64,000 nucleotides of DNA from Thermococcus nautili (lineage in GTDB: Archaea; Methanobacteriota_B; Thermococci; Thermococcales; Thermococcaceae): assembly GCF_000585495.1 (NCBI RefSeq), contig NZ_CP007264.1:744001-808000 (forward strand), read 5' to 3'. This document shows, in pieces, positions 45,987 through 48,626 of this stretch. The position numbers and the translations under genes were made by a program. The notes under the pieces are model-generated. The model was given only the letters and a program-made list of their open reading frames with translations, did not search any database and was not told the origin of the DNA. Every line of letters starts with the position of its first letter. The stretch's first letter is position 1.

Positions 45987-46273
45987 AGGTCGAAGAGGCC
46001 GAAAAGGTTCGGGCGCTTTTGAAGGAACTCGGTGAAGAGGCTTTAATAGCGAGGCTGGACTCATTCATCGCTTTAAACGAGGGTCTTGAGACCAAGAAGG
46101 GCGAGGACTACATAAAGCTCTCGATTCTGAGCTTCCTGGAGGGACTCCTGATGACACTGAAGATGAAGTACCCGGGGAAAGGTGAGGTTGCGGACTTATA
46201 CGAGGAAATCAGGGCCAAGCGGGCGGAGCTCGACGAGCTCTTCAGGAAGCCGGCGATGCAGAACCTTCAGTGA
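45983..46273 (+). CDS. Hypothetical protein, 96 aa, all-helical
   Basis: Not recognised. Amphipathic helices throughout (EEAEKVRALLKELGEEALI; IRAKRAELDELFRKPAMQ). Translation is coupled to the TatD gene (ATGA), which suggests a partner of that enzyme. No cofactor or membrane motif. It overlaps the convergent DHPS-like gene by seven bases. Confidence 0.6.
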   Translation: MKVEEAEKVRALLKELGEEALIARLDSFIALNEGLETKKGEDYIKLSILSFLEGLLMTLKMKYPGKGEVADLYEEIRAKRAELDELFRKPAMQNLQ

Positions 46274-47802
46274 GAATCGCGAGAATAAAACTCCGGGAAC
46301 AGCTCAACCTCCTGAACGTAGCTCCTCCTCAATTTTAAGGCCGTGTAAGCCCTCTCTAGCTCACGGCCGAGGTAGAAGGCGTGCCTCGGGCTTATCTCGA
46401 AGCGCTCAAGAATCGTGTCGATTATCGCGTTTGGCTCGTCGCCGACGACCGTTAGAACGGCCTCCGTTCCCCGGTGGGCGTTCACCCAGATTCTTCCCCC
46501 CTCAACCCAGATGCGGAAGTAAACCGGCTCAAGCCCAACGGGTCTTTCCCTCGCCTCAACGACCTCCCGAGCCGGCTCGAAGCGCCACTCCCTGGTTCTC
46601 TTCTCCTTCAGGATGAGCAGGTCGAAGCCCAAATCCTTTGGAATCTCAAAGAGGTTCATGTCCACGGCCCTTCTGAGTTCCCTTACCGAGCCCTTAGCCT
46701 TTGCGCTCGTCTCCGTCGTGAGGAGAAGGCTTATCGAAAGCTCCTTCGCGATTCCTGCCAATAGGGCGTTCATTCCCACGCTGTCGGCGTCGTAGAGCTC
46801 AACCACGTTGCCGACTCCAGCGAGAAGAACGTCGTCCGGGTTCCTCTCGCGGTAGAGGTGGAAGGCCGTTATCGAGCGCGCCAGGTGGGGAACCTGCTCG
46901 AGGATTAAATCCGGGATTAGGGTCTTGTAGCCCAAATCCAGAGCTTTCTCCTTGAGCCTCTCAAGGAACTCAACTCTCTCCGAGGGCCTAGGGGGGAAGA
47001 AGCCTTCCCTCTGGTTCGTCGGGATTAGAACGACCGGTTTTTCAGTGACGAGCGCCTCAAGGTTGCCCTCGTCGACGCTCAGGAAGAGGTCTGCATAGCT
47101 CAAAGCTTTCTCGATTTCAACCGCGTTAAGGGAGTCGAAGCTAATCGGGACGTCGAAGCCTCTCTCTTTGAGCCTCTCGCGGATTTCAGGAATCAGCTCA
47201 ATGAAATCGAGGTTCGTTTCTCCAGCAACCATCCCGATGTCGATTATATCTGCCCCCTCGCGGAGGTAGTAGAGGGCCTTCTCAACCGTCCCATCTACGC
47301 CGAGTCTCGGAGCGTCAACGACCTCGCCGAGAATCCTCGTCGGGAAATCTTTCCCGACAGGTAAGTTGCCGATGAGGACATTCCAGGGCTTCTTAAGGGC
47401 CCTCTCGATGTAGCGCCTGTCCTTAGTCTTGTTCCTGATGTCCTCGACCTTCTTTAGGCCGTCGAGGGAGAAAAGCTCGTCCGCCGGCTTCTCCTTGCTC
47501 AGCCTGAAACCCCTCTCCAATGCCCTCAGCACCGCGGGAAGGTCCATCGCGTTCCTCGGCCCTTTAAAGGTTGGAATCCCTATTTCATCCTCGATGGGTT
47601 GGGCTGAACCCCTGACGAGACCGGGAATCAGAATTAAGTCGTAGTCCTCGCTTCTCACGCCGGCCCTCTTCAGGTAGCGGACTATCAGCTCGGGAGTTAA
47701 GAAAGCCGCGACGCTGACCGGCGTGACGAGGACGTCGCAGCCTTTCCCGTACTTCCTCACGAGCGGTTCGGCGAGTTTACCTGTGACGAGGAGGATTCTC
47801 AT
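46267..47802 (-). CDS. Dihydropteroate synthase-like protein (archaeal type)
   Basis: A 511-residue protein of the archaeal DHPS-related family. The N-terminal part (1-130) is unique to the family; residues 150-400 are a pterin-binding TIM barrel with ADIIDIGMVAGETN, DVPISFDSLNA and VDEGNLEAL; a C-terminal DUF4346-like part follows. Expected to act in tetrahydro(methano)pterin-type cofactor synthesis, though the reaction is not proved. No ribosome binding site; TATA-like CTTTTAAGG about 25 bases upstream indicates a leaderless message. Confidence 0.85.
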   Translation of the reverse strand: MRILLVTGKLAEPLVRKYGKGCDVLVTPVSVAAFLTPELIVRYLKRAGVRSEDYDLILIPGLVRGSAQPIEDEIGIPTFKGPRNAMDLPAVLRALERGFRLSKEKPADELFSLDGLKKVEDIRNKTKDRRYIERALKKPWNVLIGNLPVGKDFPTRILGEVVDAPRLGVDGTVEKALYYLREGADIIDIGMVAGETNLDFIELIPEIRERLKERGFDVPISFDSLNAVEIEKALSYADLFLSVDEGNLEALVTEKPVVLIPTNQREGFFPPRPSERVEFLERLKEKALDLGYKTLIPDLILEQVPHLARSITAFHLYRERNPDDVLLAGVGNVVELYDADSVGMNALLAGIAKELSISLLLTTETSAKAKGSVRELRRAVDMNLFEIPKDLGFDLLILKEKRTREWRFEPAREVVEARERPVGLEPVYFRIWVEGGRIWVNAHRGTEAVLTVVGDEPNAIIDTILERFEISPRHAFYLGRELERAYTALKLRRSYVQEVELFPEFYSRDSH

Positions 47803-47830
47803 GATTGAAACTTCGGGATTGGCCTTAAAA

Positions 47831-47887
47831 GCCCTCGGCCGGTAGGTGGCTCATCACCGCTCAGCCGGGAGTAGCTCGTCATCGGGC
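47831..47887 (-). ncRNA. C/D box sRNA candidate, 57 nt
   Basis: Read on the minus strand: GCCC stem, GATGA (C-like), an 14-nt guide, CTGA (D'), GCG, GTGATGA (C', perfect core UGAUGA), a 12-nt guide, CCGA (D with one change), GGGC stem, TTTT. The TATA box TTTATATA (plus 47908-47915) is about 24 bases before the predicted 5' end. The guide regions are GAGCTACTCCCGG and CCACCTACCGG; targets not determined. Confidence 0.65.
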
Positions 47888-47907
47888 AGAGGAGGTAAGG
47901 AAGGGAG

Positions 47908-47915
47908 TATATAAA
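47908..47915 (-). promoter_or_regulatory. TATA box of the C/D box sRNA candidate
   Basis: TATATAAA on the plus strand (TTTATATA on the minus strand) is placed correctly to start transcription at 47887, the first base of the sRNA stem. No other minus-strand gene starts within 80 bases. Confidence 0.6.
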
Positions 47916-47978
47916 GCCTCGGAATCCTCCCCCGCACCCTCATCAATCGGTCCGCTGGGCTCTCCTCATCGGCCGGAA

Positions 47979-48626
47979 TCACAGGTAGGGGGCAAAGAGC
48001 AAATCCTCAAGCTTTCCGCCGGCTTTTCGGAAGACCGCCACGCTCCAGCCGACGTTTCCAACCTTCTCCGGCCTGTGGGCGTCGCTGGCGAAGGTCAGCT
48101 TAACGCCCCTCTTTATGCACTCCCTCACGAACTCCAAATCCGGAACGCGGTAGCGGGAGCTTATCTCAAAGGCCTTTCCCCTTTCCTCGGCAAGCGCGAT
48201 GAGTTCAAGGAGGTCCTCCCATGAGGGGTAGCCAATGTAGGGAAAGCTCGCCCCGAAGTGGCCTATTACGTCGACGTTCTCGTCGAGAAGGGCAACCCTA
48301 ACGAGCTCGACGTACTGCTCCGGCCGGTCAACCCACTCGTGAACGCTCGCTATCACGAAGTCGAGCTTCTCTGCCATCCAGTCCGGCACGTCAACGCCGT
48401 TGGGAGTTATGTTGCCCTCGATTCCCGCTAAAACCGTTATCTCGCTATCCTCGCCCCAGCGCCTTATCTCGCTCAGGTAAGCGTTGAAGTTACCCCGCAG
48501 GAGGTAGTGGCTGTGGTCCGTTATCGCAACGAGCGAAAGGCCCTTCCGCTCGGCCTCCGCGATGTTCTCGAAGACCTCTCCGAGGCCGTCAGAGTGGAGC
48601 GTGTGGGTGTGCGAATCGTGAATCAT
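47979..48626 (-). CDS. PHP-domain metal-dependent phosphoesterase
   Basis: A 215-residue PHP-fold protein. Ligands: HDSHTHTLHSDG (residues 3-14), ITDHSHY, Glu in LAGIEGNI, His in ASVHEW, GHFG, and the terminal FASDAHRPE. Related to histidinol-phosphatase and PHP domains of PolX; the substrate is unknown. A TATA-like TTTTTTAAAG lies about 25 bases before the ATG, with no ribosome binding site, so the message is probably leaderless. Confidence 0.88.
   Translation of the reverse strand: MIHDSHTHTLHSDGLGEVFENIAEAERKGLSLVAITDHSHYLLRGNFNAYLSEIRRWGEDSEITVLAGIEGNITPNGVDVPDWMAEKLDFVIASVHEWVDRPEQYVELVRVALLDENVDVIGHFGASFPYIGYPSWEDLLELIALAEERGKAFEISSRYRVPDLEFVRECIKRGVKLTFASDAHRPEKVGNVGWSVAVFRKAGGKLEDLLFAPYL

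Follow-up and report, generated by a model that had tools for sequence, protein, structure and literature searches.

Organization of the locus and identity of the sRNA

On the minus strand of the window, which is the whole 64-kb stretch of DNA analysed here, a PHP-domain gene (stop codon at 47979) is followed by an sR53-like element, the TATA-like element TTTATATA, a gene for the C/D box sRNA sR10, the element CTTTTAAGG and a dihydropteroate synthase-like (DHPS-like) gene with its ATG at 47802. The features of the locus are:

47917..47973, minus strand: C/D-like element resembling sR53 (RF01276), scoring 30.0 bits, below the cut-off of 49
47908..47915, minus strand: TATA-like element TTTATATA, presumed sRNA promoter from its placement and from identical letters in G070 (locus L071)
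47831..47887, minus strand: C/D box sRNA sR10, 57 nt including the closing stem GCCC/GGGC, from RF01149 and homologs
47876..47882, minus strand: C box ATGACGA, nucleotide 5 being C (k-turn position 3b), from comparison of homologs
47865..47875, minus strand: D' guide GCTACTCCCGG, forming 11 Watson-Crick pairs with 23S rRNA and predicting Gm1390 (equivalent to E. coli 1264)
47861..47864, minus strand: D' box CTGA, from comparison of homologs
47851..47857, minus strand: C' box GTGATGA, from comparison of homologs
47839..47850, minus strand: D guide GCCACCTACCGG, forming 10 Watson-Crick pairs with 23S rRNA and predicting Um2325 (equivalent to E. coli 2232)
47835..47838, minus strand: D box CCGA, nucleotide 2 being C (k-turn position 3n) and facing the C of the C box, from homologs and co-variation
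47823..47831, minus strand: TATA element CTTTTAAGG of the DHPS-like gene, abutting the 3' stem of the sRNA, from comparison of loci
46267..47802, minus strand: downstream gene for a dihydropteroate synthase-like protein (TIGR00284), its ATG 22 nt after TTTTAA

The Rfam covariance model of sR10 (RF01149) aligns with 47833-47886 (-) over its full length (model positions 1-54 of 54), scoring 75.9 bits against a cut-off of 45, with an E value of 6.7e-17 for the 64-kb window. This is far beyond chance, and a tRNA is the sole further Rfam match above its cut-off in the window. The original prediction had described a 57-nt minus-strand C/D box sRNA with C, D', C' and D boxes and a GCCC/GGGC stem, and all of these are found at 47887..47831 (-), in that order, every box containing the GA from which the sheared pairs form. 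The sequence at 47831-47887 (-) is a genuine C/D box sRNA and a new member of an already catalogued Rfam family, which was presumably first described in Pyrococcus.

After a correction of register, ATGACGA (47882..47876), preceded by GCCC at 47887..47884 and G at 47883, is the C box that forms the k-turn. The resulting k-turn, assigned by hand from the box rules, has GCCC/GGGC as its outer helix, a three-nucleotide bulge GAT and the sheared pairs GA/GA, and nucleotide 6 of the C box forms a Watson-Crick G-C pair with nucleotide 1 of the D box. The guides and box order are those of the family model. In contrast, the C box ATGACGA (model AUGAUGA) and the D box CCGA (model CUGA) of the window copy differ from the model by a paired C:C change, and this copy has a closing stem that lies beyond the model, and other neighbours.

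The sR53-like element at 47917-47973 sits just after the stop codon of the PHP-domain gene. With 30.0 bits it lies outside the sR53 family as delimited by RF01276, its D' guide differs from GGTGGGCACTCC of G011 and G021, and in G070 the C and D boxes of the corresponding element are broken. It is probably an sRNA gene in decay, the guide of which has diverged.

Conservation of sR10 and co-variation of its C and D boxes

Ninety-four genomes of the family were searched with an sR10 pattern in which the variable box positions were left free and up to three mismatches were allowed. Lack of box conservation among relatives had been named beforehand as an outcome that would count against the sRNA; the pattern is present, with all four boxes in place, in 23 of the 94 genomes, and the reversed control gives 0 matches. 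Carriers make up 15 of the 61 genomes in the window's genus, eight of the nine in a second genus (g12, which we take to be Pyrococcus) and none of the 24 in the other four genera. All 23 belong to the 74 genomes with a completeness of 90% or more and contamination of no more than 5%; 20 of the 71 genomes with no match fall short of 90% completeness or exceed 5% contamination. Only one of the 23 matches made use of the permitted mismatches. The D guide with its box as the sole pattern recovers the identical 23 of 94 genomes, with two control matches. The D' guide with its box was dropped as a pattern, as it matches 35 of 94 genomes, including places other than sR10, and its reversed control matches many genomes; a 14-nt pattern with two mismatches was uninformative, since it matches in 61 of 61 genomes and its reversed control in similar numbers. 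A search of the relatives with Rfam under strict filters found sR10 in at least 10 of 61 genomes, with no more than 77 of up to 431 candidates per genome scored; this undercounts, and we therefore prefer the counts from the pattern search.

In 23/23 copies the guides share the unchanged cores CTACTCC and CCACCTACCG, and the D'-C' linker varies, a contrast that is partly built in, as the search pattern itself fixed most of the guide letters. The closing stem GCCC/GGGC occurs in 15/15 copies of the window's genus and 0/8 of the second; its invariance within the genus means that the stem provides no evidence from co-variation.

The sRNA is of the same class as the C/D sRNAs of T. kodakarensis, a species whose published coordinates (Table 1 of PMC9014305) agree with those of G011 for the 23S gene and for three C/D sRNAs. 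From this agreement, and from the nearest protein matches among named contigs, which are from Thermococcus, we regard Thermococcus as the genus of the window. The sR10 ortholog of G011 (C1:274093-274145) forms a tandem pair with a preceding sR53-like unit and has A:G at 3b:3n, in contrast to the C:C of the window copy. Circular reads are reported for 26 of 61 putative C/D sRNAs of T. kodakarensis; the G011 copy of sR10 (274.1 kb) is absent from the printed circular-RNA table and the main text of that paper (PMC9014305).

The D box had been noted as CCGA rather than CTGA, and CCGA is what stands at 47838..47835 (-). The ATGACGA register places nucleotide 2 of the D box opposite nucleotide 5 of the C box, as the 3b:3n pair of the k-turn. 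Among the 23 copies of sR10 this pair is U:U in eight, C:C in nine, A:G in four and A:A in two; U:U accounts for 8/8 copies of the second genus, and the other three combinations are those of the window's genus. The internal motif has C:C in G024, C:U in G061 and U on both sides in the rest.

For a wider comparison we used the pattern CCGATGANGA...CNGAGG, with both positions free, on G000 and eight other genomes. This pattern, which samples one sort of C/D sRNA, gave 76 matches, 49 of them with internal D'/C' boxes. Across these 49, C5 and D2 co-vary with a mutual information of 0.54 bit, a value that 0 of 20,000 permutations reach; C'5 and D'2 co-vary likewise (0.47 bit, 0 of 20,000). The mismatched combinations display no co-variation in the same set (C5 with D'2, 8,726 of 20,000; C'5 with D2, 19,289 of 20,000), and C5/D2 gives none (13,645 of 20,000) in a control formed by the 27 matches set aside for want of such internal boxes, a few of which are real sRNAs. 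The permutation statistics take no account of a tree, and orthologs are not independent; with each pair counted once per guide family, 26 of 20,000 permutations are as high. Taking the first C.GA as D' gives a wrong internal pair for the sR53-like element of G000 (one such case seen), and the set is confined to sRNAs with a C' box [AG]TGANG, which leaves aside one of G000 and one of G024, among others. We found no description of this co-variation in the open-access literature consulted.

The C5:D2 pairs of the 49 sRNAs are U:U (13), G-C (10), C:C (8), G:U (5), C:U (5), A-U (4), A:G (2), A:A (1) and C:A (1), and C:U thus occurs as a half-step. SnoReport 2.0 is described as requiring at least one U at these two positions (PMC7994747). 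The C:C pair of the window copy departs from this U:U consensus, which is a consensus rather than a defining feature; as 22 of the 49 sRNAs have no U on either side, we do not take C:C as excluding the unit from the C/D sRNAs. In the window's own genome, nucleotide 2 of the D box is C in 8 of the 10 box-complete C/D sRNAs found with one pattern, one of which is the doubtful sR53-like element. The odd D box is explained by the matching change at nucleotide 5 of the C box: as judged from these comparisons, CCGA is not a defect, and such matched changes are common in the guide RNAs of relatives.

The same pair position is the subject of a published rule on k-turn folding. A Watson-Crick pair at 3b:3n prevents folding in metal ions, and G at 3n or C at 3b, though not both, permits it (McPhee 2014, PMC4382518); the -1b:-1n and 4b:4n pairs also contribute, with G:C at 4b:4n impairing folding (Ashraf 2017, PMC5689011). 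Archaeal box C/D k-turns are described in the latter source as strongly U:U and unfolded in ions, whereas in our pattern-selected set only 13 of 49 are U:U. For the window copy, C:G can be assigned at -1b:-1n and G:C at 4b:4n. With C at 3b, its k-turn should fold more easily without L7Ae than a U:U version, a predicted effect that G:C at 4b:4n would counteract; the A:G k-turn of G011 should likewise fold more easily than U:U.

Flanking sequences and alternative readings of the unit

In TTTATATA the first T is 28 nt upstream of the unit's first base, and 20 nt lie between the last base of the element and the unit; the 24 bases given for the TATA box in the original prediction fit the middle of the element. 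Transcription in T. kodakarensis is reported to start about 23 bp after the TATA box (PMC4247193), and this distance from TTTATATA leads to the opening bases of the sRNA. In 8 of the 15 copies of the genus (the window, G070 and six further copies), an A/T 6-mer with differing letters has its first base 25-30 nt ahead of the stem, against 526 of 18,258 positions (2.9%) in the window, a contrast that is inflated and only indicative, given a largely coding background and the relatedness of the loci. These observations suggest that sR10 probably has its own promoter, as proposed in the original prediction. The same sRNA might instead be cut from read-through of the PHP-domain gene or from a dicistronic precursor, with the TATA-like element there by chance. 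Such a TATA-like motif is reported at only about 20% of the archaeal C/D sRNA genes investigated in PMC7994747, and seven of the fifteen copies have no A/T 6-mer at 25-30 nt. Three of these (G011, G021, G083) lie a few bases after an sR53-like unit, read by eye and in G011 also by pattern, as would suit a dicistronic precursor; in G061 and G020, 6 and 0 nt separate the PHP stop codon from the start of sR10, and the 40 nt preceding sR10 contain no A/T 6-mer; G036 and G003 have another upstream context. In the second genus, too, G096 has an sR53-like unit, read by eye, ahead of sR10. The placed A/T 6-mers of the other eight copies speak against processing as the sole origin, which we regard as unlikely, though still to be reckoned with.

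At the other end, the T run (47830..47827) begins right after GGGC, and the C at 47831 is the only base common to the 57-mer and CTTTTAAGG. That the sRNA end adjoins the DHPS-like promoter, as had been proposed, proves general in the genus: in 13 of 15 copies the unit runs up against an A/T element, after which comes the DHPS-like gene (identified by tblastn, 82-100% identity). Within about 1.5 kb, tblastn gives no DHPS-like match at the other two (L063, L075) or at any of the eight copies of the second genus. At L063 and L075, GGGC is followed by TAAAATC, with no T run, and in seven of the eight second-genus copies GGTG[GA]AA..ATG comes after the D box. A protein search yielded 19 DHPS-like loci from Thermococcales: in all 19 an A/T 5-mer lies no more than 60 nt from the first codon matched, one (L013) carries an intact sR10 and one (L021) a relic of it. 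The T run is missing where the DHPS-like gene is not adjacent; it thus belongs to the DHPS-like promoter, and its earlier assignment to the sRNA does not hold, nor does a role as sRNA terminator. In the seven second-genus copies (L053-L059), CTGAGGTG[GA]AA..ATG at the D box resembles the ribosome-binding site of the next gene, with which the sRNA end would then overlap.

The same adjacency might mean that the unit is no guide but a cis-acting k-turn, situated in the promoter or leader of the DHPS-like gene and regulating it by binding L7Ae; PMC4247193 notes that a cis role may apply to some of the snoRNAs predicted close to 5' ends. Against this, the TATA element of the DHPS-like gene comes after the unit, with the ATG 22 nt further on, so an mRNA started there would exclude the unit; the neighbours are different at L063, L075 and in the second genus; and the guides are conserved, although a k-turn regulator has no need of them. 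A cis-acting role is, on this evidence, highly improbable. Decay of sR10 does occur, as the relic at L021 (2401-2467) demonstrates with its broken D' and C' boxes, and the window copy could in principle be another such relic; here, however, boxes, guides and stem are all intact and the two odd positions change together, which makes a decaying copy in the host species just as improbable. The L021 relic lies 5' of the DHPS-like gene and has D' CTGG, C' GTGATAA and C-to-T changes in the guides; the A/T element of the DHPS-like gene is intact there.

Predicted 23S rRNA targets and proposed function

The methylated nucleotide is the one opposite the fifth nucleotide upstream of D' or D (PMC7994747). 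By this rule the D' guide, which pairs at 11 of 11 positions with the genome's own 23S rRNA, predicts Gm1390, and the D guide, with 10 bp after a mismatch beside the D box, predicts Um2325; the E. coli equivalents, 1264 and 2232, were assigned by alignment, and in G011 numbering the two sites are G1391 and U2326. The search for rRNA complements of the guides, suggested in the original prediction, thus places both on 23S rRNA with the 10-12 nt expected of the class. Two of 400 shuffled D' guides reach at least 11 bp and backwards-read rRNAs give 6, whereas 21 of 400 shuffled D guides reach at least 10 bp and backwards-read rRNAs also give 10. The complementarity is good for D' and statistically weak for D alone, and the case for the targets consequently rests on conservation. 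All seven large-subunit rRNAs examined contain both target stretches, among them those of three genomes with no sR10 match (L077, L078 and L079, the 23S loci of G110, G001 and G097). This persistence, together with the 71 of 94 genomes with no match, suggests that sR10 is dispensable.

In the C/D class, the k-turn and k-loop bind L7Ae, Nop5 and fibrillarin. Taken together, our data make it very likely that the 57-nt unit is a double-guide archaeal C/D box sRNA of the sR10 family with a probable small promoter of its own and two predicted methylation sites in 23S rRNA. Homology, conservation of the boxes, complementarity and box co-variation are the observed parts of this explanation. We propose that sR10 would be transcribed from its small promoter, possibly also by read-through from the PHP-domain gene. 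The transcript would fold into a terminal k-turn, with the GCCC/GGGC stem, a GAU bulge, tandem G.A pairs, C:C at 3b:3n and G-C at 4b:4n, and an internal k-loop would form from C' and D'. As in other members of the class, L7Ae, Nop5 and fibrillarin would assemble on it, and the two guides would direct 2'-O-methyl groups to Gm1390 and Um2325; the C box, through its matching C, would keep the CCGA D box functional. Its most likely function in the host, from the conserved guides, is that of an ordinary rRNA methylation guide.

As an sRNA, this copy of sR10 is ordinary; the co-variation is the only part likely to be of specialist interest, and mildly so. It offers a simple rule for telling genuine D boxes that are not CUGA, which would aid the annotation of Thermococcales genomes, and it provides natural orthologs with U:U, C:C, A:G or A:A on which the published 3b:3n folding rule can be put to the test.
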